Under the pieces are notes generated by a model that did not search any database, was not told the origin of the DNA, and saw only the letters and a list, made by a program, of their open reading frames with translations. Both the position numbers and the translations under genes were made by a program. Of a stretch of DNA of 64,000 nucleotides, positions 9,001 through 32,147 are shown one piece after another. The stretch is from contig NZ_OY762905.1 in the NCBI RefSeq assembly GCF_963666525.1, forward strand, positions 682,001-746,000, in the 5' to 3' direction. Each line of letters begins with the position of its first letter. Position 1 is the first letter of the stretch. The DNA comes from an uncultured Cohaesibacter sp. GTDB taxonomy: Bacteria; Pseudomonadota; Alphaproteobacteria; Rhizobiales; Cohaesibacteraceae.

Positions 9001-10088
9001 TCCATCACCCGCAATGCCACCGCCGTCCCGACCCTGGTCACCGACGACAGCGCCCTGGCCTCCGGCAATCTGGATACCGGCGCCGAGCAGACAACCGACA
9101 GCGCCGACTTCTCCTCCCTGTTCGACAGCGTCTTTGGCGCCGATGGCGGCAAGGATGATGACGATGATGGCGTCGCCGACAGTGATGCCGTCCGCTATCA
9201 GATGGCCATCTCGACCTCCGCTTCCGGTCTCGTCGACAGCCTCACCGGCGAAGCGGTCACCCTCAGCATCAATGCTGCCGGGACCCTCATCACCGGCGCA
9301 TCCGCAACCGGTGGCACCGTCTTCACCATCAGCCTCGATCCCGACACCGGCACCATAACCCAGACCCAGATCCGCGCCGTCGAGCATGACGACCCGGCCG
9401 ATCCGTCCGAGGCAACCGCACCATCCGTCCTCTCCGGCGTCTCCATCACATTGACCGCCACCGTCGAGGATGGCGATGGCGATACCCAGTCGGCATCAAC
9501 CGACATCGCAGCCGCCTTCACCTTCGAGGATGACGGCCCATCCATCACCCGCAATGCCACCGCCGTCCCGACCCTGGTCACCGACGACAGCGCCCTGGCC
9601 TCCGGCAATCTGGATACCGGCGCCGAGCAGACAACCGACAGCGCCGACTTCTCCTCCCTGTTCGACAGCGTCTTTGGCGCCGATGGCGGCAAGGATGATG
9701 ACGATGATGGCGTCGCCGACAGTGATGCCGTCCGCTATCAGATGGCCATCTCGACCTCCGCTTCCGGCCTCGTCGACAGCCTCACCGGCGAAGCGGTCAC
9801 CCTCAGCATCAATGCCGCCGGGACCCTCATCACCGGCGCATCCGCAACCGGTGGCACCGTCTTCACCATCAGCCTCGATCCCGACACCGGCACCATAACC
9901 CAGACCCAGATCCGCGCCGTCGAGCATGACGACCCGGCCGATCCGTCCGAGGCAACCGCACCATCCGTCCTCTCCGGCGTCTCCATCACATTGACCGCCA
10001 CCGTCGAGGATGGCGATGGCGATACCCAGTCGGCATCAACCGACATCGCAGCCGCCTTCACCTTCGAGGATGACGGCCCATCCATCAC
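1..10088 (+). repeat. Tandem 540-bp coding repeats, about 18.5 copies
   Basis: The same segment recurs exactly every 540 bases: 1, 541, 1081 and so on to 8641, then 9259 and 9799 after a 78-base interruption. The copies are nearly identical in DNA and almost fully identical in protein. Differences fall at a few sites, mostly third-codon positions (for example GCTGCC, GCCGCA or GCCGCC near the unit start, GACGGG or GACGGC before the FEDDGP end, CTTCCGGT, CATCCGGT or CTTCCGGC). These variants are shuffled between copies rather than ordered. The only amino-acid variant I see is Ala for Thr at about 7177 and 8257. The array probably continues left of the window. Confidence 0.98.
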
Positions 10089-12525
10089 GATCTCGCTCAA
10101 CCAGTTGGCACCGCTTGCCACTGACGAGTCGGTGGGCGAAGACGACGGTCTTGTCAACTTCGCGGCTCCTGACGATGAAGACGGGGAAACCGATCCGTTT
10201 GGCCTCCGTCCAACCATGATCGGCTATGCACTACTGGTCGCCAGTGCCATATCTACGTCCGCCAGCTATGGTGCAGACGGATCGGACGGCAATGCTCCGG
10301 TACTGACGCTGACCGCCTCTGATGGCAGCGGCCTGAACGGGACGGCAACCGGCCTGACCGATTCTGCCACGGGTAGAGCCATTCATCTGTTCACGGAGCT
10401 TGATGGCTCCATCACCGGCCGCGTTGCGAACGGCGATGGCACAGCCAACTCATCCGGTGTGATTGCCTTCGTGGTCGGGTTCGACCTTTCAGGCAACATC
10501 GTTCTGGTGCAGTATAGCGCGCTCCATCACCCGGATTCTTCCAACCCGGATGACTTTGTCTCTCTGACAAACATCTTCGTAACGGCAAGCATCACTGATG
10601 GCGATGGTGACTCGGCTTCGTCAACCACCGCCAGCGCTCTTGACATCGTCTTTGAAGATGATGGCCCGGCAGCGATCCAGACAGAAAATGCCTACCTGCT
10701 CAACTCGTCTGGAGCGACCTTCACGGGGGATCTCGATCTCGACGTCAACATTGACGACAATGTCGGTCAGGATCAGCTCGGCTCCATCACCTTCGCATCG
10801 GGCATGAACGGTGCCAACAGTGGCTTCACCTCGGGAGGGGCTCCGATCTACTACACGCTGATCAACGGGTCCCAGACGCTGATCGCCTACACCGGCGCAA
10901 CGGTTCCGACCACAATCGCATCGGCTGGCGTGGTATTCTATGTCACACTCGACACCGACGGAGCTTTGGCATCGGCCAGCGATACCTACAGCGTCACGAT
11001 GGTGGGCACGGTCGATGGTGGCGCAACGGAGATTTCCTTCACGGACGGAGGATATGATCCTGCGGGCGGCAACCTCGACTGGAACGGTTTTGTTCCAACC
11101 GGCGATGTGCTCACGGTTCCGAAGAAGGCAGGAGACCCGCAACCGGTCGACAACAACAGCTCGGATCTGCTGATCACACCGGTAGCAACCAATCCTGCGA
11201 CCCCAAGCTACCCATATTATACGACCATCAACAACACCGCGAACGGCTTTGGCACCGGCGGCGGCGGCGGCGGTCAGAATATCGGCTCTGGCGAAGGCAT
11301 CAGGCTTGATTTCGTCACCGATCTGGTTGGCAATCCTGCCAGTACGGCAGGCGACTACACCACAACAACAAACCAGGATCATATGTATGACGGCCACTAT
11401 GGTGTAAATGGTGCATTTGTTTCCTTCGGTTCCATCGGGACGTCGTCAACAGTTCGCTTCTACACAAAGATTGATGACGACAGCGATCTTCCTGCGGCCC
11501 CAGGAACCTATCCGACTGTTGGCGATGGTGCAAACGAGACCATCATGAGCATCACGGTCAGCCACATGACCAACAGTCTGACAACACCGCCGACTTACAC
11601 CACGATGACATTCTATCGTTCGGGCGGGGATCTGACCGGTGTTCTGATCGGAACCCAGAGTTACGACATCACCTGGAATGGTGATGGCTCGGTTGATGTC
11701 GCCGGCTTGTCTTCTCCGTCGGTCAGCGGCACCTCCTATGGAGACAATGTCTCGATCAATACGGCAAGCAACTACAACAGTCTGGAAGTCCATTATGTTT
11801 CCGGGGACGCGTTCGTGCTGTCCGAATTCGGCGCCACGGCCATTGATCCCGGTGCAGCAGTCGACATCCAGCTGGATCTGAGCCTCACGGATTCCGATGG
11901 CGACATCTTCGATGGAACACTCAATCTGTCCATGTTGCCGCCGGATCCATTGACCACAGCCAATTTCACGACGAGTGCTTCGACCACTTACATCCTCGGC
12001 ACAGAACAGCACGCAATCGGTTCGTATTTCGACGACACGATCACGGGCAATGCCGGAGATAACGTGATTGCTGGCCTCGACGGCATCGACACACTCTTCG
12101 GCTTGGCGGGGGATGATGTCCTTGATGGCGGATATGGCGATGACATCCTCGACGGTGGTCTTGATGATGACCTTCTGATCGGCGGAGCCGGTGAAGACAC
12201 GATGACGGGCGGTGATGGAGCCGATACCTTCGTTATCGATCTTGACAGTCTGGATGCGTCGATTACCGATCTCATCACCGACTACGACAAGGCCGAAGGG
12301 GATATCGTGGATCTGTCTGCGGTACTGGAAGCGCTCGGCACGCCACCAATTGACGCAGCCTCAGCTGACGCCGTGGTCGATCTTGCCTATGACGGCGGCA
12401 GCAATACAACAGCGGTCATCGTCGACTACAATGGTACCGATGTGGAAGTCGCAACGCTGAATGATGCGCATGCGACGATCTCCATCCTCTTCAATGATAC
12501 CGATGCTCCGACGGATGTCTCATAA
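1..12525 (+). CDS. Giant RTX/VCBS-like repeat adhesin, type I secreted (5' end outside window)
   Basis: The reading frame is open from base 1 and ends at TAA 12523-12525, so at least 4174 residues are seen and the N-terminus lies to the left. Bases 1-10088 encode about 18.5 copies of a 180-residue repeat. Each copy holds a short acidic DDDDDG stretch, a VEDGDGD motif and the FEDDGP signature of DUF5801/VCBS-like repeats-in-toxin domains. From 10089 the sequence becomes unique, with another FEDDGP-type domain near 10660 and a domain around 11260-11930. Classical RTX nonapeptides of GGxGxD type follow at about 12040-12230, then the acidic C-terminal tail typical of T1SS substrates. Known family role: calcium-stiffened surface adhesin or biofilm protein exported by an ABC/MFP/TolC system. 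No secretion genes are in the window. The adhesin role is inference; the repeat and RTX architecture is direct. Confidence 0.93.
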   Translation, partial: TLSINAAGTLITGASATGGTVFTISLDPDTGTITQTQIRAVEHDDPADPSEATAPSVLSGVSITLTATVEDGDGDTQSASTDIAAAFTFEDDGPSITRNATAVPTLVTDDSALASGNLDTGAEQTTDSADFSSLFDSVFGADGGKDDDDDGVADSDAVRYQMAISTSASGLVDSLTGEAVTLSINAAGTLITGASATGGTVFTISLDPDTGTITQTQIRAVEHDDPADPSEATAPSVLSGVSITLTATVEDGDGDTQSASTDIAAAFTFEDDGPSITRNATAVPTLVTDDSALASGNLDTGAEQTTDSADFSSLFDSVFGADGGKDDDDDGVADSDAVRYQMAISTSASGLVDSLTGEAVTLSINAAGTLITGASATGGTVFTISLDPDTGTITQTQIRAVEHDDPADPSEATAPSVLSGVSITLTATVEDGDGDTQSASTDIAAAFTFEDDGPSITRNATAVPTLVTDDSALASGNLDTGAEQTTDSADFSSLFDSVFGADGGKDDDDDGVADSDAVRYQMAISTSASGLVDSLTGEAVTLSINAAGTLITGASATGGTVFTISLDPDTGTITQTQIRAVEHDDPADPSEATAPSVLSGVSITLTATVEDGDGDTQSASTDIAAAFTFEDDGPSITRNATAVPTLVTDDSALASGNLDTGAEQTTDSADFSSLFDSVFGADGGKDDDDDGVADSDAVRYQMAISTSASGLVDSLTGEAVTLSINAAGTLITGASATGGTVFTISLDPDTGTITQTQIRAVEHDDPADPSEATAPSVLSGVSITLTATVEDGDGDTQSASTDIAAAFTFEDDGPSITRNATAVPTLVTDDSALASGNLDTGAEQTTDSADFSSLFDSVFGADGGKDDDDDGVADSDAVRYQMAISTSASGLVDSLTGEAVTLSINAAGTLITGASATGGTVFTISLDPDTGTITQTQIRAVEHDDPADPSEATAPSVLSGVSITLTATVEDGDGDTQSASTDIAAAFTFEDDGPSITRNATAVPTLVTDDSALASGNLDTGAEQTTDSADFSSLFDSVFGADGGKDDDDDGVADSDAVRYQMAISTSASGLVDSLTGEAVTLSINAAGTLITGASATGGTVFTISLDPDTGTITQTQIRAVEHDDPADPSEATAPSVLSGVSITLTATVEDGDGDTQSASTDIAAAFTFEDDGPSITRNATAVPTLVTDDSALASGNLDTGAEQTTDSADFSSLFDSVFGADGGKDDDDDGVADSDAVRYQMAISTSASGLVDSLTGEAVTLSINAAGTLITGASATGGTVFTISLDPDTGTITQTQIRAVEHDDPADPSEATAPSVLSGVSITLTATVEDGDGDTQSASTDIAAAFTFEDDGPSITRNATAVPTLVTDDSALASGNLDTGAEQTTDSADFSSLFDSVFGADGGKDDDDDGVADSDAVRYQMAISTSASGLVDSLTGEAVTLSINAAGTLITGASATGGTVFTISLDPDTGTITQTQIRAVEHDDPADPSEATAPSVLSGVSITLTATVEDGDGDTQSASTDIAAAFTFEDDGPSITRNATAVPTLVTDDSALASGNLDTGAEQTTDSADFSSLFDSVFGADGGKDDDDDGVADSDAVRYQMAISTSASGLVDSLTGEAVTLSINAAGTLITGASATGGTVFTISLDPDTGTITQTQIRAVEHDDPADPSEATAPSVLSGVSITLTATVEDGDGDTQSASTDIAAAFTFEDDGPSITRNATAVPTLVTDDSALASGNLDTGAEQTTDSADFSSLFDSVFGADGGKDDDDDGVADSDAVRYQMAISTSASGLVDSLTGEAVTLSINAAGTLITGASATGGTVFTISLDPDTGTITQTQIRAVEHDDPADPSEATAPSVLSGVSITLTATVEDGDGDTQSASTDIAAAFTFEDDGPSITRNATAVPTLVTDDSALASGNLDTGAEQTTDSADFSSLFDSVFGADGGKDDDDDGVADSDAVRYQMAISTSASGLVDSLTGEAVTLSINAAGTLITGASATGGTVFTISLDPDTGTITQTQIRAVEHDDPADPSEATAPSVLSGVSITLTATVEDGDGDTQSASTDIAAAFTFEDDGPSITRNATAVPTLVTDDSALASGNLDTGAEQTTDSADFSSLFDSVFGADGGKDDDDDGVADSDAVRYQMAISTSASGLVDSLTGEAVTLSINAAGTLITGASATGGTVFTISLDPDTGTITQTQIRAVEHDDPADPSEATAPSVLSGVSITLTATVEDGDGDTQSASTDIAAAFTFEDDGPSITRNATAVPTLVTDDSALASGNLDTGAEQTTDSADFSSLFDSVFGADGGKDDDDDGVADSDAVRYQMAISTSASGLVDSLTGEAVTLSINAAGTLITGASATGGTVFTISLDPDTGTITQTQIRAVEHDDPADPSEAAAPSVLSGVSITLTATVEDGDGDTQSASTDIAAAFTFEDDGPSITRNATAVPTLVTDDSALASGNLDTGAEQTTDSADFSSLFDSVFGADGGKDDDDDGVADSDAVRYQMAISTSASGLVDSLTGEAVTLSINAAGTLITGASATGGTVFTISLDPDTGTITQTQIRAVEHDDPADPSEATAPSVLSGVSITLTATVEDGDGDTQSASTDIAAAFTFEDDGPSITRNATAVPTLVTDDSALASGNLDTGAEQTTDSADFSSLFDSVFGADGGKDDDDDGVADSDAVRYQMAISTSASGLVDSLTGEAVTLSINAAGTLITGASATGGTVFTISLDPDTGTITQTQIRAVEHDDPADPSEAAAPSVLSGVSITLTATVEDGDGDTQSASTDIAAAFTFEDDGPSITRNATAVPTLVTDDSALASGNLDTGAEQTTDSADFSSLFDSVFGADGGKDDDDDGVADSDAVRYQMAISTSASGLVDSLTGEAVTLSINAAGTLITGASATGGTVFTISLDPDTGTITQTQIRAVEHDDPADPSEATAPSVLSGVSITLTATVETAADPSEATAPSVLSGVSITLTATVEDGDGDTQSASTDIAAAFTFEDDGPSITRNATAVPTLVTDDSALASGNLDTGAEQTTDSADFSSLFDSVFGADGGKDDDDDGVADSDAVRYQMAISTSASGLVDSLTGEAVTLSINAAGTLITGASATGGTVFTISLDPDTGTITQTQIRAVEHDDPADPSEATAPSVLSGVSITLTATVEDGDGDTQSASTDIAAAFTFEDDGPSITRNATAVPTLVTDDSALASGNLDTGAEQTTDSADFSSLFDSVFGADGGKDDDDDGVADSDAVRYQMAISTSASGLVDSLTGEAVTLSINAAGTLITGASATGGTVFTISLDPDTGTITQTQIRAVEHDDPADPSEATAPSVLSGVSITLTATVEDGDGDTQSASTDIAAAFTFEDDGPSITISLNQLAPLATDESVGEDDGLVNFAAPDDEDGETDPFGLRPTMIGYALLVASAISTSASYGADGSDGNAPVLTLTASDGSGLNGTATGLTDSATGRAIHLFTELDGSITGRVANGDGTANSSGVIAFVVGFDLSGNIVLVQYSALHHPDSSNPDDFVSLTNIFVTASITDGDGDSASSTTASALDIVFEDDGPAAIQTENAYLLNSSGATFTGDLDLDVNIDDNVGQDQLGSITFASGMNGANSGFTSGGAPIYYTLINGSQTLIAYTGATVPTTIASAGVVFYVTLDTDGALASASDTYSVTMVGTVDGGATEISFTDGGYDPAGGNLDWNGFVPTGDVLTVPKKAGDPQPVDNNSSDLLITPVATNPATPSYPYYTTINNTANGFGTGGGGGGQNIGSGEGIRLDFVTDLVGNPASTAGDYTTTTNQDHMYDGHYGVNGAFVSFGSIGTSSTVRFYTKIDDDSDLPAAPGTYPTVGDGANETIMSITVSHMTNSLTTPPTYTTMTFYRSGGDLTGVLIGTQSYDITWNGDGSVDVAGLSSPSVSGTSYGDNVSINTASNYNSLEVHYVSGDAFVLSEFGATAIDPGAAVDIQLDLSLTDSDGDIFDGTLNLSMLPPDPLTTANFTTSASTTYILGTEQHAIGSYFDDTITGNAGDNVIAGLDGIDTLFGLAGDDVLDGGYGDDILDGGLDDDLLIGGAGEDTMTGGDGADTFVIDLDSLDASITDLITDYDKAEGDIVDLSAVLEALGTPPIDAASADAVVDLAYDGGSNTTAVIVDYNGTDVEVATLNDAHATISILFNDTDAPTDVS
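8851..8928 (+). repeat. 78-bp in-frame partial duplication inside the repeat array
   Basis: Bases 8856-8928 duplicate 8778-8850 exactly (73 bases). With five junction bases they form a 78-base, 26-codon insertion that keeps the frame open. It shifts the 540-base register for the last two copies. The junction gives the residues VETAADPSEA where other copies read VEDGDGD. It is the only length change in the array. Confidence 0.95.
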
Positions 12526-12732: not shown

Positions 12733-12771
12733 TTGACAGGTTGGTACAGCTATGTGATTAATCGATTAATC
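12733..12771 (+). promoter_or_regulatory. Promoter with perfect LacI-type operator upstream of the FAD oxidoreductase
   Basis: TTGACA at 12733-12738 is a consensus -35 box. The 16-base perfect palindrome GATTAATCGATTAATC (12756-12771) begins 17 bases later and covers the expected -10 region. It has the central CG typical of LacI-family operators. A near-identical site at 19378-19393 precedes the TRAP operon, and a LacI-family gene lies between the two, so this is the likely operator of that regulator (inference). Confidence 0.75.
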
Positions 12772-12814
12772 TAACAACATGAACCAGTGTTGGAATTGAA
12801 TGTTAGGAGCCTCC

Positions 12815-14920
12815 ATGCCTGATCGGACATCCGCAACTGCCTCCCCCCTTACCCCACAGGTCCTTCAGGCACTGACCCGCATACCGATGCCGCGCGGCTA
12901 CAAAACCGGAAAGGCAGACCGCGTCGAAGATATTGATGGCTATAGAATGGCGATCTTCCGCTGTCAGTCGCTGGTACTGGGATCCGGAGCCGCTGGCCTG
13001 CGCACCGCCTGCGAGCTGAAGCGCCGCGACCGCGATGTCATGGTGGCGACCGGTGGCATGTATATGGGCACATCGGCCTGCTCGGGCTCCGACAAGCAGA
13101 CCATCCACACCGCCTCCACGAGCCGCAATGGCGACAATTTCGAACAGCTCGCAAAGGATCTGGCCGCAGGAGGCTGCATGGACGAAGACATTGCCTATGT
13201 GGAGGCAGTCGGGTCCATCAATGCCATGGCCGGGCTGCAATATATGGGGCTGGATCTGCCCGAGGATCAGTTCGGTGCAATCCTGCGCTACCAGACAGAC
13301 CATGACGACTATGGCCGCGCAACAAGCTGCGGGCCGCGAACATCCCGCCTGATGGTCAAGGTGCTTCTGGAAGAAGCCATTCGCCTCGACATCCCGTTCC
13401 TGACCAGCTCAACAGGGCTCAGAATTCTCACTGCAGGAACAGCCGGGAACAGGCACATCACCGGCCTTGTGGTCGCCAACAAAGACTTTGAGCACAACCC
13501 CTTCGGACTTGCAGTGATCGAATGTGACGAGCTGGTGATTGCATCCGGCGCACCGGGCGAGATGTATCGCGACAGCGTTTATCCCAAGAAGTGCTTCGGC
13601 TCTCTGGGCATGGCCCTTGAAGCCGGGATTGCGCTTTCCAACCTCACCGAGAGCCAGTTCGGCATCGGCTCCCCGAGGGAAACCTTTCCGTGGAACCTGT
13701 CTGGCACCTATGTTCAGGTCATGCCCCATGTCTTTTCCCGCGATGCAGACGGACGCGAGCATAACTTCCTTTCCGATTACTATCGCACCACGCGGGAAAT
13801 GGTCTCCAACGTCTTTCGCAAAGGCTATCAATGGCCGTTTCATGCAGGCCGGATGATGGACTTCGGCTCATCGCTGGTGGACATTGCCGTCCATCTGGAA
13901 ATCAAGAAAGGCCGTGAGGTCTTTCTCGATTTCCTGCGCAACCCGTTGCCGGTGGAAGGGGGGGCACCATTCAGCCTTGATGATCTGGATGACGATGTCC
14001 GGGCCTATCTGGAGAATAACGACGCGTTGGCAGACTTGCCCATAGATCGACTGACGAGAATGAACCCTCTGGCGAACGAGCTTTACCGCATGAACGGCAT
14101 CGATCTGAGACACGAGCAACTCAGGATGGCCATCAACAACCAGCATATGAACGGCGGGATCGACATCGACCGTTGGGGCGCAACCAATCTTGATGGCGTC
14201 TACGCGGTTGGAGAGGCAGCAAGCAGCCACGGGGTCACCCGACCAGGTGGGTCGGCTCTGAACGCGGGTCAGGTGTTTGGCCTGCGGATCGCCAAACATG
14301 TGGCATACAGGGGCAGGTCTCATGCAGGCAGCATTGATCTTTCAGCTGTCTCTGCCTTGTTCAGGGAACTGGAACAGGCAAAGGCTGGCTCCTTGTCCAT
14401 CGCGGCTGTGAAACTGACCATTCAGGCCCGGATGAGCGACAGCGCCGGCTTTGTGGTTGATGGCGTTGATGTGAAGGCAGCCTATGGCGAAGCGCTGGGC
14501 CTCATTGAAGCCATCCAGAGATCCGGCCTCCAGCTCAGAAGCGATAGAAGGGTGGCGGACTATTTCATCTGGAAGCAATTGGCCCTCACCTCGGCGGCGG
14601 TTCTTGCTGCCCTTGATCACTATATCGCCAATGGTGGCGGCAGCCGCGGCGCAAGGGTCATCCGGGATCCGTCATCTCCCCTTGTCCCACAGATCAGCTC
14701 AGGAGCCCTCTCGGACTTCGCCTACCGCGAAGAACAGGAATGCGACAAGAACAGAAAGATCATTGTGACCTACGATGGAACGGCGCTTTCCTGCCGTGAA
14801 CGCCCGATCCGCGTGCGCGACTCCAGCCCCGTCTATTTCGAGAAGGGATGGGGCGCCTTCCTCAGGGAAGAAATATTCGAAACCGGGGACAGCGACAGAC
14901 AAATCGGCCCCACCCTCTGA
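12815..14920 (+). CDS. FAD-dependent oxidoreductase, succinate dehydrogenase/fumarate reductase flavoprotein family
   Basis: The protein has about 701 residues. The ATG at 12815 is preceded by AGGAG at 12805-12809, a better start than the in-frame ATG at 12800. A Rossmann FAD-binding motif GSGAAG lies near residues 56-61, followed by a TGG and a SACSGSDK segment. The C-terminal half has NQHMNGGI, a GEAASSHG segment and GGSALNAGQ, the typical second FAD-contact region of fumarate reductase and L-aspartate oxidase flavoproteins. It lacks a recognisable signal peptide, so it is probably cytoplasmic. It stands alone under a LacI-type operator, converges with the LacI gene (6 bases between stop codons) and shares its operator sequence with the TRAP transporter. 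I infer that it oxidises the TRAP substrate or a derivative. The substrate cannot be named from sequence. Confidence 0.85.
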   Translation: MPDRTSATASPLTPQVLQALTRIPMPRGYKTGKADRVEDIDGYRMAIFRCQSLVLGSGAAGLRTACELKRRDRDVMVATGGMYMGTSACSGSDKQTIHTASTSRNGDNFEQLAKDLAAGGCMDEDIAYVEAVGSINAMAGLQYMGLDLPEDQFGAILRYQTDHDDYGRATSCGPRTSRLMVKVLLEEAIRLDIPFLTSSTGLRILTAGTAGNRHITGLVVANKDFEHNPFGLAVIECDELVIASGAPGEMYRDSVYPKKCFGSLGMALEAGIALSNLTESQFGIGSPRETFPWNLSGTYVQVMPHVFSRDADGREHNFLSDYYRTTREMVSNVFRKGYQWPFHAGRMMDFGSSLVDIAVHLEIKKGREVFLDFLRNPLPVEGGAPFSLDDLDDDVRAYLENNDALADLPIDRLTRMNPLANELYRMNGIDLRHEQLRMAINNQHMNGGIDIDRWGATNLDGVYAVGEAASSHGVTRPGGSALNAGQVFGLRIAKHVAYRGRSHAGSIDLSAVSALFRELEQAKAGSLSIAAVKLTIQARMSDSAGFVVDGVDVKAAYGEALGLIEAIQRSGLQLRSDRRVADYFIWKQLALTSAAVLAALDHYIANGGGSRGARVIRDPSSPLVPQISSGALSDFAYREEQECDKNRKIIVTYDGTALSCRERPIRVRDSSPVYFEKGWGAFLREEIFETGDSDRQIGPTL

Positions 14921-14926
14921 CACCGG

Positions 14927-15952
14927 CTAGCCAGCAACAGAAAACGTGGATTTCCGTTCGATCAGCTTTGGTTCAAGACGAACGGTACGGTGCTTGCCCG
15001 TGTCCCCGTTGATCCGCGAAATGATGAGCTCTGCCGCAATTTTGCCGACGGAACGGGAGTAGGTCTCGACGCTCGTCAGCGGAGGGTTCCAGATGCCAGC
15101 CTCCGGCAGATTGTCACACCCGATCAGCGAGAGGTCCTCACCAATCACTCGCCCCCTTGAAAGAAAGCCTGCGGTGGCCCCCATGGCAACGATGTCATTG
15201 TGGCAGAAAACGGCTGTAAAGGGCGCGTCTGTTTCGGCCAGATCAACAGCCGCTTCCCGACCGAAATTGCGACTTTGCGGCCCCTGCTTGACGACAATGG
15301 AGTGATCAGGAATATCCGCCTTGCGCAGCGTATCCACGAACCCCTTGACGCGCAATCGGCCCGTAGAGGAGCTTTCCAGCCCACCGATCACGGCGAACTG
15401 CGAATGGGCATCCTTGAGAAACTGTTTTGCTGCCAGTTCGCCACAGCGATAGTCATCGATGCCTACAAAATCAAAATCCGCATTCGCGATTTCACGGACA
15501 AAGGTGACAACCGGTATTTCATGCGCGAACGTCCGCTCCAGATCATCCACTTCCGTGTTGGCGCTTGGCGAGACGATGATACCGGCCACCCCGTGTGCAA
15601 TGACTTCGGCGAGCAGAGTGGACTGGCGCTCCTTGTCTTCACCGATATTGGCAATGATCGGCAAATATCCCTCATTGGACAGGGCCGCCTCGAAGCTTGC
15701 CGAGAATTCGCCATAGAACGGGTTGGCTATGTCCTGAACGAGAACGCCCACCAGACGAGACCGGCCCGTGCGCAGCTTGGCTGCGGTGTAATCGCGCACA
15801 AACCCCAGCTCTTCCATTGCCTGTTTCACCTTGACACGGGTCGTTTCAGACACCCGCCCGGTACCATTCATGGTATTGGAAACAGTAGCGGTGGAAACAC
15901 CCGCCCGCTTTGCAATATCCGAGACTGTCACCTTCTGGCGATTCTTTGCCAT
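14927..15952 (-). CDS. LacI-family transcriptional regulator
   Basis: The protein has 341 residues. The N-terminal helix-turn-helix reads VTVSDIAKRAGVSTATVSN (about residues 8-26) with a hinge helix through AAKLRTGRS, then a periplasmic-binding-protein-like effector domain (VGVLVQDIANPFYG; GCDNLPEAG near residue 275). It has full family length. It sits downstream of the TRAP genes on the same strand, separated by about 316 bases with a terminator-like hairpin, so it probably has its own promoter. The two palindromes at 12756 and 19378 flank its locus, and it is the best candidate to bind them. The effector is probably the transported substrate (inference). Confidence 0.92.
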   Translation of the reverse strand: MAKNRQKVTVSDIAKRAGVSTATVSNTMNGTGRVSETTRVKVKQAMEELGFVRDYTAAKLRTGRSRLVGVLVQDIANPFYGEFSASFEAALSNEGYLPIIANIGEDKERQSTLLAEVIAHGVAGIIVSPSANTEVDDLERTFAHEIPVVTFVREIANADFDFVGIDDYRCGELAAKQFLKDAHSQFAVIGGLESSSTGRLRVKGFVDTLRKADIPDHSIVVKQGPQSRNFGREAAVDLAETDAPFTAVFCHNDIVAMGATAGFLSRGRVIGEDLSLIGCDNLPEAGIWNPPLTSVETYSRSVGKIAAELIISRINGDTGKHRTVRLEPKLIERKSTFSVAG

Positions 15953-16268
15953 GCTCTTCCTGCGTATTCAAAAGCCAATGCTGCCGGATCAGACAGGATC
16001 CGAACCTCAAGTCTCCACCAAATCCTCAAAGAGTCCATCGGTATATTGAGTGCTCTCAAAATTTCCTCCGACAGGCAAGTAGTTTCTTTTGAACAAAATC
16101 GGAAAGACAGGCATCCGTTCCTGTCTTCCCGTCTTTCGGGGACCGTTGGAGCAATCAGCGATAACCCTTCCTCTCACGACCATAGGAAAACCCGGTTTCC
16201 AAGAAGGCAAGGCATGTCAGACAGAGGCTCAGCGCGCCAGACGGGGCCCATCCGGCGCGATGCAGCAA
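15953..16268. other. Spacer between the LacI and TRAP large-permease genes
   Basis: No coding frame here is supported. The stretch holds the upstream region of the LacI gene and a hairpin at 16101-16129 that could end TRAP transcription. I see no copy of the GATTAATC palindrome, so there is no sequence sign of autoregulation through that motif. Confidence 0.6.
16095..16129 (-). terminator. Likely terminator of the TRAP operon
   Basis: On the minus strand, GGAAGACAGG and CCTGTCTTTCC pair with one bulged base and are followed by ATTTTG. It lies about 140 bases after the TRAP large-permease stop codon. Confidence 0.5.
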
Positions 16269-17576
16269 TCAGTTGATCAGTCCGAACATTCTGGGCAGGA
16301 AAAGGCTCAGCCATGGGACATAGGTGATGAACATCAGCGTGACGATCAGCACAGCACAAAAAGGCAGGATCGCGCGGATCACGCTTTCTATTTTCGCACC
16401 ACTGACACTGCAGCCAACGAACAGGGCCGTGCCGACCGGTGGCGTTGCGATCCCGATGCACAGGTTGAAAACGATCATCATGGCAAAGTGGATCGGATGC
16501 ATACCGAGCTGGACCGCAATCGGCATGAAAATCGGCGTGAAGATCAGCAGCGCAGGCGTCAGGTCCATGAACATCCCGATAATCAGCAGTATGATGTTCA
16601 TCATGATGAAAATGATGATCGGATTGTCGGAGACCGACAGCATCCAGTCGCTGATCATGCCCGGCAGTCCGGTGAAGGCCATGGCCCATGACATGATCGA
16701 GGACGCTCCAACAAGGAACAGCATGATCCCGGTGATTTCCGCCGTCTCCTTGCAGATGGTCCACATGTCTGACATAGAAAGCGACCGATAGCAAAGAGAG
16801 AGGCCGAAGGAATAGAGGACCGCGATACACGCCCCTTCCGTTGCCGTGAAGACACCACCGATGATTCCGCCGATCACCACGACAATGAGGCCAAGGCTCG
16901 GAATGGCCTGCCAGACCACCTGCAGGGCGACCTGCACGCTCGGGCAGCTGTCGGCCTGATTGCCATAGCCACGCTTTCGAGCGATGACATAGGCAACGAC
17001 CATGCAACTGAGGCCCATCAGAATGCCTGGAATGTAACCCGCAACGAACAGGGCAGCCACCGAGGTGCCACCGCTGACGACCGAGAACACGATAAGCGAG
17101 TTGCTCGGCGGGATCAGCAGACCTGAGGGGCACGAGGCGACATTCACCGCCGTCGCAAAGGACTTGTCATAACCGTCCTTCTCGAACTCCGGGGCAACGG
17201 TCTTGCCGACGGCCGCCGCCGCTGCCACCGCCGAGCCTGAAACAGCCCCAAACAGCATGTTCGACAGAATGTTGACATGGGCGATGGAGCCCGGCATGCG
17301 CCCAACCATGAGCTTGGCGAAATTGACCAGTCTTGCGGCAATACCGCCGGAATTCATGATGTTACCGGCCAATACGAAAAACGGGATCGCAAGCAGACTG
17401 AAGCTGTCCACGCCAGTCACGAGCTTCTGCCCTGCAGTGACACTCGCCACCTGCACTGGCAGCACCATGAACATCACTAGCAGCGAAGACAGGGCAATGG
17501 CCACGGCAATGGGGACGCTGAGCGCGATCATCAAGGAAAACAGACAAAGGAGCCAGGCTCCGACAGAGATATCCAT
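16269..17576 (-). CDS. TRAP transporter large permease (DctM-like)
   Basis: The protein has 435 residues, normal DctM length. Sequence shows many hydrophobic helices, the family-typical LLIPPSNSLIVFSVVSGG segment and a late PPVGTALFVG segment. DctM subunits carry the substrate through the inner membrane, driven by a sodium or proton gradient. The gene starts 6 bases after the DctQ stop, within a DctP-DctQ-DctM operon. The substrate class is not readable from the sequence; most relatives move C4-dicarboxylates, sugar acids or other carboxylates. Confidence 0.93.
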   Translation of the reverse strand: MDISVGAWLLCLFSLMIALSVPIAVAIALSSLLVMFMVLPVQVASVTAGQKLVTGVDSFSLLAIPFFVLAGNIMNSGGIAARLVNFAKLMVGRMPGSIAHVNILSNMLFGAVSGSAVAAAAAVGKTVAPEFEKDGYDKSFATAVNVASCPSGLLIPPSNSLIVFSVVSGGTSVAALFVAGYIPGILMGLSCMVVAYVIARKRGYGNQADSCPSVQVALQVVWQAIPSLGLIVVVIGGIIGGVFTATEGACIAVLYSFGLSLCYRSLSMSDMWTICKETAEITGIMLFLVGASSIMSWAMAFTGLPGMISDWMLSVSDNPIIIFIMMNIILLIIGMFMDLTPALLIFTPIFMPIAVQLGMHPIHFAMMIVFNLCIGIATPPVGTALFVGCSVSGAKIESVIRAILPFCAVLIVTLMFITYVPWLSLFLPRMFGLIN

Positions 17577-17582
17577 GGCCGC

Positions 17583-18104
17583 TTACTTCTCCCCGGAAGA
17601 CTTGGTGTTGAGGGCTTCCGCTTCTTTGTGCGGAAAGAGCAAATCGATGGTGTTGAGCACCACATAAATGCAGATCAGGAAGGCCGAGAGCGGCAGAATG
17701 CCGTAGACGTAGCCCATGGGGATGCGCAACGCTGGCGAGATCTGGAACATGGTGCGTCCCATAAGCGCAATTCCGCCGTTGATCATTGCCAGATAGGCGA
17801 AGGCAACAACGAGAATGCCGATCACGATTTGCAAGGCGGCATGCATCTTCGGAGAGAGGCTGTCCGATAGCAGCGTGATCGCCAGATGGCCGTTTTTGCC
17901 AAACAGGAATGACGCCCCCAACAGACCCAGCCAGATCATCATGAAACGAGCAATCTCATCGGTGAATGTGCTCGGGTTGTTGAGGATGTATCGGCTGAAA
18001 ACCTGCCATGATACGGCAGCTACGAGGAGTATGATAATGACTCCGCAAAAACTCAGTAGCAACTGATCAAGGCATGCTCTGAACTTCTTTAAGAACGCAA
18101 GCAT
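17583..18104 (-). CDS. TRAP transporter small permease (DctQ-like)
   Basis: The protein has 173 residues from the ATG at 18104, which is preceded by AAGGTGG. An upstream in-frame TTG at 18149 would add 15 residues but lacks a better ribosome site. Four hydrophobic helices are visible, with the typical DctQ segments RFMMIWLGLLGASF and GRTMFQISPALRIPMG. DctQ forms the membrane complex with DctM and docks the periplasmic binding protein. It lies about 94 bases after the DctP gene and 6 before DctM. Confidence 0.88.
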   Translation of the reverse strand: MLAFLKKFRACLDQLLLSFCGVIIILLVAAVSWQVFSRYILNNPSTFTDEIARFMMIWLGLLGASFLFGKNGHLAITLLSDSLSPKMHAALQIVIGILVVAFAYLAMINGGIALMGRTMFQISPALRIPMGYVYGILPLSAFLICIYVVLNTIDLLFPHKEAEALNTKSSGEK

Positions 18105-18198
18105 TGGCCACCTTGTTTCTTTCTTTTGTGAGACATTCGGCGCCACCAACCATGCCTTGGGAAGGCGATCTTGTCACTGGCGCCGGTTGGGTCAAAGA

Positions 18199-19161
18199 TC
18201 AGTGAAGGTCCTGAATCCGACGAACATAATCGCCAAGCTTGGGGTCGTTCAAAGCATCATCGATCATCGGTTTCACAGCCTCGCGGAAAGCCGCCTTGTC
18301 GACATCGTAGAACTGGACGCCAATTTCCTTGGCCTTCTCGACATTGGCCGCTTCATTGGATGCCCACAACTCGATTTCCTTGTCCAGAGCTTCAAGTGAG
18401 GCATCACGCAGGACCCCCTGCTCTGCTTCGCTAAGAGAAGTCCAGGTCGCTTCCGAAATCAGGATGATGTCAGGCGTCATGGTGTGCTCGTCCTTAGAGA
18501 AGTGTTTGGCCACTTCGGCGTGACGGGCCTCGACAAGGCTGGAGATACTGTTCTCGGCAGCATCCATGATCCCCTGCTGCAGGCCAGTATAGATCTCTGT
18601 CCACGGCATCGGCGTTGCGTTGCCGCCCAACAGTTCGATCATGCGCATGGAGGTCTGAGATTCCGGTACGCGGATCTTCAGGCCTTTCAGATCTGCGGGG
18701 GTATGGAATGGCTTGTGACCATAGAAGCTGCGCGCACCGGAATCGAGGAGCGAAAGACCGATGAATCCCTTGCCCTTGCTTTCCTGCATCAAGTCCCATG
18801 CTACATCGCTGCGCATGAAGGCGCGCTGATGGTCGGTATCGCGGAAGAGGAATGGCAAGCCCATGACCTTGAGCGTCGGTTCAAAGGATTCGGCCAGCGA
18901 CCCGTTGATCTTCGCCATATCCAGAGCACCATTGATGACCTGCTCCGCCTGATCACGCTCCGAACCGAGCTGGGCATTCGGAAAGATCTGAACGGTCAGC
19001 TCGCCGTTCGACTTCTCTTTGACGAGGTCGGCAAAGACCTGCATCCCCTGATGCTGCGCATTGTCCGTAGACATTGCGTGGCCAAGAGTAAGATTGCGGG
19101 CCTGGGCTGACGTGAGGGCCACAAGGCTGGAGGCCACAAAAGCCAGAATCAACTTGTTCAT
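18199..19161 (-). CDS. TRAP transporter substrate-binding protein (DctP-like)
   Basis: The protein has 320 residues. The N-terminus MNKLILAFVASSLVALTSAQA is a clear Sec signal peptide. The mature protein begins RNLTLGHAMSTDNAQHQG, typical of DctP, and contains the conserved KGLKIRVPES segment and PMPWTEIYTGLQQGIMDAAEN, where family members bind the substrate carboxylate with an Arg. GGGAG precedes the ATG. It is the first gene of the TRAP operon, about 216 bases downstream of a LacI-type palindrome. The bound carboxylate is unknown. Confidence 0.93.
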   Translation of the reverse strand: MNKLILAFVASSLVALTSAQARNLTLGHAMSTDNAQHQGMQVFADLVKEKSNGELTVQIFPNAQLGSERDQAEQVINGALDMAKINGSLAESFEPTLKVMGLPFLFRDTDHQRAFMRSDVAWDLMQESKGKGFIGLSLLDSGARSFYGHKPFHTPADLKGLKIRVPESQTSMRMIELLGGNATPMPWTEIYTGLQQGIMDAAENSISSLVEARHAEVAKHFSKDEHTMTPDIILISEATWTSLSEAEQGVLRDASLEALDKEIELWASNEAANVEKAKEIGVQFYDVDKAAFREAVKPMIDDALNDPKLGDYVRRIQDLH

Positions 19162-19376
19162 TTTTCACTCCCATTGTCGCCACGCCCGTTTCAGACATTC
19201 CGGAGACCTAAATTTGCTTCCTCTCATCCGGAAGCATCGTGATCAGGCATATGGCTCAGAATTGTTTTCCATGCGCGGATTGCCGATGGCTTGGTTGCAC
19301 GGCCGATTTTGAAAAATGGCAAGACCACCTTTCGGATCCGACTCCATCAACCCTTGAAATCCACTGCATACCCTCA

Positions 19377-19394
19377 TGATTAAACGATTAATCA
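19377..19394 (-). promoter_or_regulatory. LacI-type operator upstream of the TRAP operon
   Basis: GATTAAACGATTAATC (19378-19393) differs by one base from the perfect palindrome at 12756-12771 and keeps the central CG. With flanks it reads TGATTAAACGATTAATCA. It lies upstream of the DctP gene on the minus strand. The shared sequence ties the FAD oxidoreductase and TRAP genes into one regulon (inference). Confidence 0.75.
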
Positions 19395-20141
19395 ATGAAT
19401 TCGTAGATGTGGAAAATACCTAACCAGATACTCTTTTGAGGATTTACCTCCCGGCCGCGTTGCCCTCTCGCACAAAAAGTCCTCTCTGGCTGGCTGGCAT
19501 GACAACCCAATCGGAGCAGTCCGACAGCCCGCAGATCGAAGCCAACATAAGGAAGAGAAACGCCAAAATCCGCTTACCTTCCCCCCGCCAACGGCGCGAC
19601 AAGAGCATGGTAATGGACAACACCGAGCGGATCATTCACCGGATGAAAAATGGCACGACAACGATGAAAAAAGAGGGAAAACAAGAACCAAAAGGCAGCA
19701 CAATGTCAGATCATCTCAGCTGACGGGGCGTGCGCTCCATGCGGAAACGCCAGCTCGCACCACAGCCTGTCAGAAACTTTCAATTCACATCACAGAAAAT
19801 TCAGAACGAATATTTCAGGCACAACCATGCAATCCTCATCTTGAATCGGGACAGATATGAAACGTGGAGCAACGTCATAGAGCGAGGTTGGAGGAGGCTT
19901 CTTCCAAGCCGACGGGTCTGGCACCACGATTTGTGGGCAAGCAAAATTGATAGACATCCGTTCTGGCACATAGCAAGGGCCGTGAACCGCCTCCTCGGGA
20001 TCGCCCCATTGCGTTAACCGCCTCGGCTTTGCCAGCCACCCCCGCAGAAAAGCGAGAAAACAGAGGCTTGTTGGTGGCAAAAGCTGGTTGGCACCCGAAG
20101 CCGCAGCGGAAAAGTAGAAGTTAATTTATTTCATAAACTCC

Positions 20142-20169: not shown

Positions 20170-20353
20170 AGAACGGAAAGGCAGCGACGACTGAAATTTT
20201 GGCCGACCGAGACGTTCTTTGGAGGAATGGTTCGTTCAAAATTCACCCTGCATGAGCTAGGAAACCAAGTCGCTTTGCCACAATTCGGGAAGAGAAAACG
20301 CCTGGTGTTCCCTTGTGACACCAGCCTACATGAATATTGAGGGGGGGATTTGG

Positions 20354-22288
20354 ATGAAAACCCTGAGACTGACGACTGCCCAGGCTCTGGTGAAATTTTT
20401 GAACCAGCAATATGTGGAGATCGATGGCGAAGAACAGAAGTTTGTTGAAGGCGTCTTCACCATTTTCGGACATGGCAACGTGCTGGGGCTCGGTCAGGCC
20501 CTCGAACAGGATCCGGGTGACCTGACTGTTCATCAAGGCTGCAACGAGCAGGGAATGGCCCATGTTGCGATGGGCTTTGCCAAACAGAACAAACGTCGCA
20601 AGATCTACGCCGTAACATCCTCTGTTGGCCCAGGCGCTGCCAACATGGTGACAGCAGCAGCCAACGCTTCAGCCAACCGAATTCCGGTCTTGTTCCTGCC
20701 TGGCGATACCTTTGCCACCCGACAGCCAGACCCCGTTCTGCAGCAGGTCGAGCAATTCCACGATTTCACCCTGACAACCAACGACTGTTTCCGCCCCGTT
20801 TCCCGCTACTGGGATCGAGTCAGTCGGCCCGAGCAGCTGATGACAGCGATGATAAACGCCATGCGGACGCTTACTGATCCGGCGAACACCGGCGCAGTCA
20901 CCGTCTGCCTGCCACAGGATGTTCAGGGCGAAGCCTATGACTACCCCGAATATTTCTTCAAGAAACGGGTCCATCGCTTCGACCGCCGCCTGCCGACGGC
21001 TCCGAGCATTGCCGATGCAGTGGCACTGATCAAGGGAAAGAAGAAACCATTGCTGATCTGTGGTGGCGGTGCGCGCTATTCCGGCGCTCATGACGCCTTC
21101 AAGGCCTTTGCCGAGGAATTCAACATTCCATTTGGCGAAACTCAGGCGGGCAAGAGCACGATTGTCGCCGATCATCCGCTCAACTGTGGCGGCGTCGGCA
21201 CGACCGGCTGTTTGGCCGCCAACCTCATCGCTCTCGAAGCGGATGTGGTGATTGGCGTCGGCACCCGTTTCACGGACTTCACTACCTCCTCCAAGACCCA
21301 GTTCCGGGGCGAAGGCGTCGACTTTGTTACGATCAATGTCGCTGAATTCGACGCGATCAAACTGGATGCCGTACCGATCGTGGCTGACGCTCGCGCCGGT
21401 CTGGAAGCCCTCGGAGATGCCCTGCGCGCAATCGGCTACAAGTCCGGCTACAGCGACGAGATCGTCAAGGCACGCAACGCCTGGCAGGAAGAGCTGGATC
21501 GCCTGTTCGGTATCACGGTGAATAATGACTTCGTTCCGGAAGTCGCTGGCCATCTCGATGACAAGCTCGATGAATATGCCCAGACTTTGCAAACCCGCCT
21601 GACCCAGACCCGCATCCTTGGCTTGCTTGACAAGCATCTGGAAGACGACGCCATTGTTGTCGGCGCCGCGGGCTCCCTGCCCGGAGATCTGCAACGCATC
21701 TGGCGCCCCAAGCAGCCAGACACTTATCACATGGAATACGGCTATTCCTGCATGGGGTATGAAGTTGCAGCATCCGTCGGGGCAAAGATCGCATGCCCCG
21801 ATCAGCCGGTCTATGGTTTGCTGGGAGACGGCTCCTATCTGATGATGCACTCGGAACTGCAAACCGCCGTGCAGGAAGGCATCAAGATCACCCTGCTGCT
21901 GTTCGACAACGCCAGCTTTGGCTGTATCAACAACCTGCAGATGGGCAAGGGCATGGGCAGCTTTGGCACCGAGAACCGCAAACGGGATCCTCAAACCGGA
22001 AGACTGACAGGACCACTGGTTCAGGTTGACTTTGCCAAGAACGCCGAAAGCTATGGCTGTGCAGGGTATTCGGTACACACTGAAGAAGAACTGATCGCGG
22101 CTCTGATTGACTCTAGGATGCAGGATCGTCCGGTGCTTATCGACATCAAGGTGCTGCCAAAAACCATGACCCATGACTATGAGTCCTGGTGGCGTACAGG
22201 CCCGGCACAGGTGGCAGACAAGCCAGCCATCGAAGAGGCCGCAGCCGACGTCGTGGAAATGATGCAGAAATTTGGTCGCCAGTATTAG
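20354..22288 (+). CDS. iolD: 3D-(3,5/4)-trihydroxycyclohexane-1,2-dione hydrolase (IolD)
   Basis: The protein has 644 residues, close to other IolD proteins. I chose ATG 20354 because GAGGGGGGG ends 6 bases before it; the longer frame to 20315 lacks a ribosome site. This is a thiamine-diphosphate enzyme that opens the ring of the diketone intermediate of myo-inositol breakdown. The conserved catalytic Glu lies in [12 protein letters not shown] (about residue 73). The ThDP/metal motif begins [13 protein letters not shown] near residue 495 and continues to [10 protein letters not shown]. It is the first gene of the inositol cluster here, with its own IolR-type promoter, and ends at a probable terminator. 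Confidence 0.95.
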
Positions 22289-22388
22289 GAGATGACCTCC
22301 GCAATATGGATCAAATATTGCATTTGGGAATTGAATCACCTTTTTGCTCTGCAGTAAAAACCGGGATGCTCTTCCGCACTTTCAGACT

Positions 22389-22430
22389 GCCCGCAAGTTC
22401 ATGACAGAGCTTGCGGGCCGTTTCATTTTT
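22389..22430 (+). terminator. Terminator after iolD
   Basis: GCCCGCAAG (22389-22397) pairs with CTTGCGGGC (22410-22418) around a 12-base loop and is followed by a T-rich stretch ending in TTTTT. It lies about 100 bases after the iolD stop. Confidence 0.7.
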
Positions 22431-22657
22431 GCCAATTTGCCATTCCCTTCCCACGCTTTTCGTCAGGCTGAGCAGACAGACGACAATTCACCGAGATTAA
22501 CCGGCTGAATCAATGCATTTATTTCAAACCCTTCCAATCTCGCCGAATTCTTGATCCCAAGCCAGACTTTGACACGGCCCAACGAATGGCCGCTTTCTCT
22601 TGTTTTGGAATGCCAAATAACTCCCGCCCGAACAAAATGGAATGAAATGGAAAATTG

Positions 22658-22727
22658 GGAATTATCGTTCCAAAAACACTCTACAATAAAATTTTTGAAT
22701 TGTTTTTTCCGGTGATGTGTTTATAGT
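22658..22727 (+). promoter_or_regulatory. Promoter with IolR-type site upstream of the inositol dehydrogenase
   Basis: GGAATTATCGTTCC (22658-22671) fits GGAA-N6-TTCC. A candidate promoter TTGTTT (22700-22705) and TATAGT (22722-22727) with a 16-base spacer follows. The -10 box is identical to that of iolD. An extra GGAATGAAAT half-site arrangement lies just upstream at about 22639. Confidence 0.6.
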
Positions 22728-22869
22728 GAAAGCCATAGGAGGACATCGTGGAGAAGCACTTCTGCACGATGCCAATTCGGCGCCTTTCCAACCACGAACC
22801 AGTCGGGCCAATGGAAAGACATCATGAAGTCAAAGTGTGTCGAAACCAGTGTCGACACGGGGGAGTGAG

Positions 22870-23856
22870 ATGTTCAAAATTGCATTGTTTGGTGCGGGGC
22901 GCATTGGTCAGATCCATGCTGCCAACGTGGCAAACCATAGTGACAGCGAGCTATATTCTATCGTCGATCCATTCGGTGATAACGCTGAAATTATGGCGAA
23001 GAAATATGGTGCAAAGATTCAGACTGCGCATGAAGCGTTTGCTGATGAAGAGGTTGACGCCATTGTCATCGCTTCGGCAACCGACACCCATGCCGATCTG
23101 ATCGAGCGCGGCGCCAAGGCCGGCAAGGCAGTTTTCTGCGAGAAGCCGATCCATCTCGACATCGAGTGCGTTCGCAACTGCCTGAAAGTAGTCGACGATC
23201 ACAAGGTGCCGTTGCTTGTGGCCTTCAACCGTCGCTACGACCCTCAGTTCAAGAAAGTACGTGACATGTTCGCGTCCGGCGCCATCGGCAAGGCCGAAAC
23301 GCTGGTGATCACGTCGCGCGATCCTTCGCCGCCGCCAGCATCCTATGTCAAGGTATCCGGCGGCATGTTCCGCGACATGATGATCCACGACCTCGACATG
23401 GCCCGTTACATCATTGGCGAGGATCCGATTTCGATTTACGCCCAGGGCAGCTGCCTGGTGGATCCGGAAATCGGAGAAGCTGGTGACATCGATACCGGTT
23501 TTGTCGTGATGAAATTTGCTTCTGGCGCTATCGCCGCTATCACCAACAGCCGCCGCTCCGGTTATGGCTACGACCAGCGGCTGGAATTGCACGGCGAAAA
23601 GGGATTGCTGAAAGCGGACAACATCCTCGAAGACGCAGTGCAGCTTTGGAGCGAACCGGGATGTGTCGGCGCCAAGCCGGAGCATTTCTTCCTCCAGCGC
23701 TATGCGGCAGCCTACAAGGCCGAATGGGACCATTTCACTCAGGTGATGGCAGGCAAGGTCCCGGCAATGAGCACTGGCGACGATGGCTTGAAGGCCCTTT
23801 ACCTGGCTGACAAGGCAGGTGAGTCTCTCAAGCTTGGCAAGGAAGTCATGCTCTGA
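22870..23856 (+). CDS. iolG: Gfo/Idh/MocA oxidoreductase, myo-inositol 2-dehydrogenase
   Basis: The protein has 328 residues from ATG 22870, with GGGGGAG 4 bases upstream; an in-frame GTG at 22837 is less likely. The N-terminal Rossmann motif GAGRIGQIHA (about residues 8-17) binds NAD. FCEKPIHLD holds the conserved EKP lysine, and GGMFRDMMIHDLDMARY carries the catalytic Asp-x3-His region. The expected reaction is myo-inositol to 2-keto-myo-inositol. Its place between iolD and iolC supports the assignment (idhA in rhizobia). A second family member lies at 34499-35503, so which one prefers myo-, scyllo- or chiro-inositol is open. Confidence 0.88.
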   Translation: MFKIALFGAGRIGQIHAANVANHSDSELYSIVDPFGDNAEIMAKKYGAKIQTAHEAFADEEVDAIVIASATDTHADLIERGAKAGKAVFCEKPIHLDIECVRNCLKVVDDHKVPLLVAFNRRYDPQFKKVRDMFASGAIGKAETLVITSRDPSPPPASYVKVSGGMFRDMMIHDLDMARYIIGEDPISIYAQGSCLVDPEIGEAGDIDTGFVVMKFASGAIAAITNSRRSGYGYDQRLELHGEKGLLKADNILEDAVQLWSEPGCVGAKPEHFFLQRYAAAYKAEWDHFTQVMAGKVPAMSTGDDGLKALYLADKAGESLKLGKEVML

Positions 23857-24243
23857 TCACGACCCAGAACAAGAGCGCCCCTGTGCAACACCGGGTCGCT
23901 CGACAAGGGGATGGATTTTCGGAATGCCGAAGCGCTACCGCTTGCAGAGACGGCATCAATCTAATGTCACCCGGATTTGAAACCTGAAATCGGCATTTCT
24001 GCTTTCAGATCCGGCCTCTTCCCGGCAGCATTCTTGCAGACCGAAGACTTGCACTTTGTGTTCCTTCCAGAACCTTTTCCGGAACAAGGACCAGGAGCGT
24101 AGTGCCCCCCTGAATGATTCAATGCGCAGTCGGACGACTTCGACCTCGTTGGATCGGGAGGAAAAGTCAGCTGATCGGCCATGCAGTAAAGGACCTCACT
24201 GCAAATTTACGGCGATCTGCGACAGGTAAAAAGAGAAAGTCAA
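23857..24243. other. Spacer before iolC
   Basis: I see no promoter consensus or IolR-type palindrome here. A 71-codon minus-strand frame at 23967-24182 has several Cys but no recognisable domain, and I did not accept it. Confidence 0.5.
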
Positions 24244-26139: not shown

Positions 26140-26289
26140 AATCAGGTGAGGAGGCCGAGTGACTTGCCCAAGGGGTCTATACTCGCCTTCTCACCGCCCT
26201 CCCCGGCTCGCACTCAAAGATCCTTTATAAGTCAAAAATGGCATTCAGGTTCAGCCATTTGCTGACCTGGTTTGAATGGAGGAAACGAA

Positions 26290-28007: not shown

Positions 28008-28033
28008 GGCAGCCCGCACGCCTTTACCGACAG

Positions 28034-28073
28034 GGCATATCGCATTTTGGTTTCAGAATGCGATATGCCTTTT
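28034..28073 (+). terminator. Strong terminator after iolB
   Basis: GGCATATCGCATT (28034-28046) and AATGCGATATGCC (28057-28069) form a perfect 13-base-pair stem with a 10-base loop, then TTTT. It starts 27 bases after the iolB stop. Confidence 0.9.
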
Positions 28074-32083: not shown

Positions 32084-32147
32084 GCGCCGACATTCCCTCA
32101 ACCCTGTTTGCTACGAATTTGAATTGTTTCCGTGGGAGGAAAAATCA

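Follow-up and report, generated by a model that had tools for sequence, protein, structure and literature searches.

The 64,000-nt stretch of an uncultured Cohaesibacter sp. analysed here (contig NZ_OY762905.1; we call the whole stretch the window and count positions in it) carries a module that encodes a FAD-binding oxidoreductase, hereafter FLAV, a LacI-family regulator and a complete tripartite ATP-independent periplasmic (TRAP) importer composed of DctP, DctQ and DctM. Gene order and promoter sequences indicate that these genes very probably form one small regulon. On balance, we lean toward the view that LacI governs a regulon with two promoters devoted to a single sugar acid, in which import of a hexuronate-type acid would be followed by flavin-dependent oxidation. 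More tentatively, we propose that FLAV represents a so far unrecognised lineage within the complex II flavoprotein superfamily, with altered active-site chemistry, that catalyses a flavin-dependent conversion of sugar acids or oxidised sugars in a widespread, undescribed catabolic route (Alphaproteobacteria, Enterobacterales, Planctomycetota, others and most complete Escherichia coli genomes), of which the window would hold the smallest form, importer and enzyme under one repressor. Substrate and reaction of such a minimal regulon, with its one binding protein and one enzyme, are directly testable.

An exact 16-nt palindrome, GATTAATCGATTAATC, stands before FLAV and a second exact 16-mer, GATTAAACGATTAATC, before dctP, with lacI between them (Table 1). 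An earlier interpretation made from the letters alone (the sequence-only reading) had reported two LacI-type palindromes that flank the regulator and precede a flavoprotein and a full TRAP transporter; both palindromes were recovered at those places, and gene order and Pfam domains agree. When the window was searched with up to three mismatches, six matches were obtained (three places, both strands counted) against 0.36 expected, and none of 100 shuffles reached six. A genome-wide search, which the same reading had called for, covered 5,175,666 bases at up to two mismatches and returned only the two module sites, and the reversed control pattern gave no match in the same search. Six simulated genomes of equal size, built with the dinucleotide make-up of positions 12.5-64 kb of the window, contained no site at up to one mismatch on one strand, and the palindrome pair stands well above chance.

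Each palindrome occupies the expected place of a -10 element, a usual location for a repressor site. Upstream of FLAV, the arrangement of GTATTTGACA, 17 nt and GATTAATCGATTAATC is common to the window and to two other genomes of the family, G003 and G010. Upstream of dctP, read on the coding strand, TAGGTATTTTCCACATCTACG is followed by GATTAATCGTTTAATC, 16 nt after GTATTTTCCA; the same three genomes agree, G010 differing at one base of TAGGTATTTTCCACATCTACG, and the minus-strand box GTATTTTCCA before operator 2 is the counterpart of GTATTTGACA before operator 1. Both operators keep their promoter spacing in G003 and G010, and the FLAV-side operator is also kept in P. flavus, with one change and without the GTATTTGACA box. 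G003 is a very close relative whose flanks are mostly alike too, and the informative comparisons are those with G010 and P. flavus (LacI identity to the window is 96% in G003, 80% in G010 and 64% in P. flavus). A generic sigma-70 scan listed neither module promoter. The regulator has both a helix-turn-helix and a sugar-binding domain, and this, together with the palindromes at the module promoters and their conservation in relatives, suggests repression by the LacI-family protein through both palindromes, which we treat as putative operators. FLAV and lacI are convergent and 6 nt apart. For FLAV, translation more likely starts at ATG 12815 than at 12800, because the former aligns in all four loci compared and is preceded by AGGAG in three of them.

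Table 1. Genes and promoter elements of the LacI-FLAV-TRAP module (positions in the window)
Feature	Position	Strand	Remarks
-35-like TTGACA, FLAV promoter	12733..12738	+	17 nt before operator 1; alignment of 4 upstream regions
Putative operator 1, perfect palindrome GATTAATCGATTAATC	12756..12771	.	At expected -10 position of FLAV promoter
FLAV, FAD_binding_2 oxidoreductase, 706 aa as open reading frame	12800..14920	+	PF00890, 88.7 bits; likely start 12815
LacI-family regulator, 341 aa	14927..15952	-	Pfam LacI, 60.6 bits, and Peripla_BP_1/3
DctM, TRAP large permease	16269..17576	-	PF06808, 392 bits; TIGR00786 over cutoff
DctQ, TRAP small permease	17583..18149	-	PF04290, 108.7 bits
DctP, TRAP solute-binding protein, probably hexuronate-type	18199..19161	-	PF03480, 267 bits; best Protein Data Bank matches include 4mhf, 4n15 and 4n91
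Putative operator 2, GATTAAACGATTAATC	19378..19393	.	216 nt before dctP start codon
Conserved box GTATTTTCCA (GTAGTTTCCA in G010)	19410..19419	-	16 nt before operator 2 on the minus strand; 3 upstream regions aligned

Co-occurrence was followed in 20 genomes of the family, the window's own (G000) included. FLAV orthologues of at least 81% identity were found in G000, G003 and G010, and both DctP orthologues of at least 90% identity and the operator pair were found in the same three of 20 genomes, as expected from the shared LacI regulon of flavoprotein and TRAP that had been put forward earlier. Two further genomes, G007 and G008, encode FLAVs of 52-53% identity in another gene context. A small FLAV remnant in G012 (residues about 133-309; L057 7745-8112), accompanied by neither a DctP orthologue nor operators, marks an apparent loss of the module.

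FLAV belongs to a large family for which we found no description; full-text literature searches, some of them very narrow and hence a weak test of absence, returned none for the family or for the E. coli operon treated below. An AlphaFold2 model built from 45 alignment rows had a mean pLDDT of 84.1 and a pTM of 0.89. Compared with the Protein Data Bank (PDB) by Foldseek, the model matched succinate dehydrogenase, fumarate reductase, L-aspartate oxidase, and APS and PAPS reductase chains (TM-scores of 0.51-0.64 by query and 13-18% identity over the 50 matches listed), and its predicted fold is of the SdhA/FrdA/NadB, or complex II flavoprotein, type. Residues were compared in an alignment of 49 FLAVs; the cluster had 81 proteins, 75 of which had a suitable length, and the 49 were selected among these. 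FLAV shares with the superfamily the FAD_binding_2 domain, the predicted fold, and His449 and Arg481, which are invariant in all 49 and align with residues 369 and 404 of W. succinogenes FrdA (H369 and R404, which we take to be substrate-binding residues). FLAV differs in having Ser357 aligned with the Arg of the PRD motif of aspartate oxidase and Gly288 aligned with the His of the QFHPT motif, Ser and Gly being found in 49 of 49; in the reference enzymes, these are presumably a catalytic and an active-site residue, respectively. A second profile alignment places the QFHPT His at residue 308 (Met/Ile/Leu/Val) instead, the capping region aligning weakly. FLAV also differs in its sugar-catabolic neighbourhoods elsewhere and in that no iron-sulfur subunit gene was found beside it among the genes assigned at 12.8-19.2 kb (FLAV, LacI and TRAP). 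No NCBIfam model reached its cutoff, the best score being 94.9 bits against 718. With Ser and Gly at the aligned positions of the catalytic Arg and the QFHPT His in all 49 members compared, fumarate chemistry by FLAV is unlikely, and its identification as a fumarate reductase or aspartate oxidase was rejected on these residues and on the model cutoffs. The earlier assignment to the fumarate-reductase family holds for fold and FAD domain; fumarate-reductase-like chemistry is not supported. If this interpretation is correct, the known scope of the complex II flavoprotein fold would extend to an enzyme that lacks the canonical catalytic Arg.

The neighbourhoods of FLAV in other genomes, with their many partner enzymes, also speak against the idea, raised by the sequence-only reading, that this protein could make up the entire pathway. 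A genome scan returned at least 579 FLAV-encoding stretches, and neighbourhoods were taken from the best 80, up to 10 kb on each side and often ended by contig ends, with clusters of neighbours named from one representative each. Two GMC oxidoreductases were the most frequent neighbours (46 and 42 loci), followed by an ABC ATPase (32), LacI and a levoglucosan-dehydrogenase-like Gfo enzyme (27 each), aldehyde dehydrogenase (20), a Dabb protein (18), 2-keto-3-deoxygluconate (KDG) kinase (13), CoA-transferase and a TIM-barrel protein (10 each), SDR (9), enoyl-CoA hydratase (8) and 2-keto-3-deoxy-6-phosphogluconate (KDPG) aldolase (5). On a Rhizobium plasmid, LacI, Gfo, CoA-transferase, enoyl-CoA hydratase, aldehyde dehydrogenase, four ABC genes, two GMC genes, Gfo, FLAV, a sugar kinase and an aldolase stand in one run. 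Many FLAV loci resemble levoglucosan and L-glucose clusters in having a Gfo/Idh/MocA enzyme related either to levoglucosan dehydrogenase (316 bits, cutoff 650) or to the L-glucose-active scyllo-inositol dehydrogenase, and some have KDG kinase or KDPG aldolase, whereas the window module has none of these genes. We know of no FLAV-type enzyme in levoglucosan or L-glucose pathways. The second GMC protein was considered as a C-glycoside oxidase, an assignment not carried by its nearest PDB entries, which are glucose and fructose dehydrogenases. A search of the window's own genome for the partner enzymes gave no convincing homologue (CoA-transferase 33%, TIM-barrel 30% partial, GMC 39% partial); KDG kinase homologues are present, the best at 40%.

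In E. coli, an uncharacterised operon between ytfB and rplI encodes a TetR-type regulator, an SDR, a TIM-barrel protein, an enoyl-CoA hydratase, a CoA-transferase and FLAV, followed by an MFS or a TRAP transporter. It was matched in 3,150 of 5,426 complete genomes (at 80% coverage or more in 3,093), which means that over half of these carry an operon with this flavoenzyme. In two strains inspected, the operon ends with a galactonate-family MFS gene (314 bits, cutoff 395; L145 9999-13441) or with dctQ-dctM-dctP (L180 8014-12960). Matches over at least 80% of the junction were found in 1,440 genomes for FLAV-dctQ and in 1,651 for FLAV-MFS; judged from these totals, which add up to 3,091, the two ends appear to be alternatives. 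The prospect that flavoprotein and TRAP genes might never co-occur in homologous loci is thus countered by a TRAP directly after FLAV in 1,440 of the 5,426 genomes, which, as one species, count as one case of pairing.

Relative to the window, the E. coli proteins are 55% (FLAV), 56% (DctM) and 41% (DctP and DctQ) identical, and a tree of 76 FLAVs joins the window group and P. flavus, as sister, to a clade that comprises E. coli, E. albertii and other Enterobacterales (SH-aLRT of 96 for the joint group; the tree was made by a quick method without bootstrap and has one long branch in the sister group). The operon thus resembles the window module in its FLAV and in a TRAP variant of the same subfamily, and differs in its TetR-type control and four extra enzymes. 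TRAPs linked to uxaC are 55-56% (DctM) and 42-46% (DctP) identical to those of the window; since the E. coli TRAP is no closer than these, TRAP and FLAV were probably paired twice, independently, with members of a single TRAP subfamily. The TRAP locus described for strain BEN2908 (PMC12928451) was considered and set aside, being a different locus, at ygiQ-ftsP.

Eight PDB sequences matched the window's DctP at E<=1e-50, all of them DctPs, including 4MHF (Bpro_3107), 4N15 (Bamb_6123) and 4N91 (Apre_1383). According to PMC7660916, Bpro_3107 binds glucuronate and galacturonate, Apre_1383 binds glucuronate, and Bamb_6123 was the modelling template for the glucuronate binder STM3169. The window's importer has the DctP family, DctQ and DctM in common with the glucuronate/galacturonate TRAPs; unlike them, it is under LacI together with FLAV and has no uxaC/uxuA beside it. 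Our best guess from this kinship is a hexuronate-type acid, in keeping with the carboxylate import proposed before. Arg144, Arg164 and Asn204 of the window's DctP are spaced as Arg150, Arg170 and Asn210 of STM3169, although these residues occur in an unrelated TRAP as well. Two paralogous DctPs are encoded in the same genome, one of 45% identity that has UxaC, a mannitol-dehydrogenase-family gene, KDPG aldolase, GH2 and UxuA nearby, and one of 35% identity that adjoins a UxaC-type gene and has both a KDG-kinase homologue and KDPG aldolase at no more than 11 kb. Because these two uronate TRAP clusters already have isomerases of their own, the third TRAP probably takes an acid that they do not handle.

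Plasmid TRAP relatives outside E. coli were examined in six of 106 matched records, five of which are annotated at the locus (a Photobacterium record has no annotation there). Those of Nitratireductor and Ruegeria TM1040 have uxaC and uxuA nearby, that of Paracoccus a GH88 gene and that of Azospirillum a GH2 gene. The closest TRAP among the relatives examined is on plasmid pIFO15640 of Vibrio penaeicida (DctM 78%, DctP 56%; L181 12001-14898). A PL7 (alginate-lyase-type) gene lies at a distance of about 11 kb, and a type I-F CRISPR/TniQ transposon-like region adjoins the TRAP genes.

We propose the following working model. In the absence of inducer, LacI would occupy both palindromes and keep FLAV and dctPQM shut off, and it would release them in response to the acid or to the first product made from it. 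DctP would then capture a hexuronate-type acid in the periplasm and DctQM would import it, after which FLAV, taken as cytoplasmic, would oxidise the sugar acid at carbons near the carboxylate or carbonyl. Electrons would pass from FLAV to quinone or oxygen, and the product might enter a KDG-type route encoded elsewhere in the genome. Oxidation is favored as the direction because of the superfamily and the catabolic neighbours of FLAV.

Several observations weigh against this model. FLAV may catalyse a reduction or an internal redox reaction instead of an oxidation. No uronate catabolic gene (uxaC/uxuA) was found at 12.8-19.2 kb, and the Arg/Arg/Asn residues of DctP do not discriminate, because an unrelated P. 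flavus TRAP used as outgroup keeps them as well; they are thus no proof of uronate. For the CoA-transferase and the TIM-barrel protein of the E. coli operon, the search of the window's genome returned no close homologue (best 33% and 30%, partial), and uxaC stands beside the TRAP in two of the five annotated relatives. TRAP-type genes were found in three of the 80 FLAV loci, none close to those of the window, in a search with window and E. coli DctP/DctM queries that could miss other TRAP types. In P. flavus, FLAV (72% identical to that of the window), LacI and the operator are kept, but an unrelated TRAP (DctP 24%, DctM 36%) lies 3-6 kb before FLAV. No FLAV, LacI or uxaC is annotated within 12 kb of the V. 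penaeicida TRAP, and no FLAV was found on its plasmid; a strict coupling of TRAP and FLAV is weakened, because this closest TRAP lacks a FLAV neighbour. Finally, the P. flavus genome holds five further near-sites of the operator, two at one mismatch and three at two, against one control match.

By eye, one of the P. flavus one-mismatch sites (L171, C3:311283) precedes a gene that looks GntR-type and then a different TRAP-like gene, and it is a possible extra member of the regulon; the other lies between unrelated genes. At 6-10 kb beyond its FLAV (L058 18284-22080), P. flavus also has counterparts of the E. coli operon genes, for CoA-transferase (63% identical), hydratase (39%), a TIM-barrel protein (53%) and an SDR. 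Operator control of this operon was considered and rejected, because a search of that contig at up to two mismatches returned no site besides the one before FLAV.

The separate occurrence of FLAV and TRAP in P. flavus and V. penaeicida also bears on an alternative that we consider unlikely, namely that plain glucuronate or an acid akin to it enters through the TRAP for uxaC routes elsewhere in the genome and that FLAV acts on a second compound merely sharing the inducer. The two UxaC-type genes and two related TRAPs of the genome would fit such an arrangement. However, a third uronate TRAP would then be redundant, and in E. coli the TRAP lies inside the FLAV operon itself, with 20 nt between FLAV and dctQ in L180.

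The sequence-only reading had seen no other pathway enzyme near the module, overlooking a complete iolD-iolG-iolCJ-iolE-iolB set at 20315-28007, all over NCBIfam cutoffs, which begins 1.2 kb beyond dctP. Given this proximity and the Gfo/Idh/MocA enzymes related to inositol dehydrogenases in many FLAV loci, the module could be thought to serve the myo-inositol cluster, the TRAP importing an inositol-derived acid and FLAV feeding iol. We give this little credence: in the genome search at up to two mismatches the iol genes had no operator nearby, and no iolD turned up in the 16 kb (G003) and 20 kb (G010) examined around the module. The link was dropped on these grounds, and the adjacency of module and iol genes looks accidental.

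We regard it as quite improbable that FLAV is a soluble fumarate-reductase-like electron sink with the TRAP importing a C4-dicarboxylate acceptor. TRAP systems often carry C4-dicarboxylates, and both fold and FAD domain of FLAV match fumarate reductase, but the substituted Ser357 and Gly288, the NCBIfam scores, the proximity of DctP to structures that include hexuronate binders and the sugar genes around FLAV elsewhere all argue otherwise. It is most improbable that the palindromes arose by chance or serve a different LacI-family protein: LacI-family operators look alike, and a single near-match stands in both G001 and G004 next to another gene that looks LacI-type by eye, but there are only two sites in 5.18 Mb, both at module promoters, and they are kept in G010 and (one of them) in P. 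flavus despite diverged flanks.

Two features lie outside the regulon that we favor. A ribose-type ABC importer follows the iol set, within positions 20315-34248. On the other side, just upstream of the module, a giant open reading frame (193-12525) has near-identical tandem repeats and, by eye, an end resembling calcium-binding repeats.

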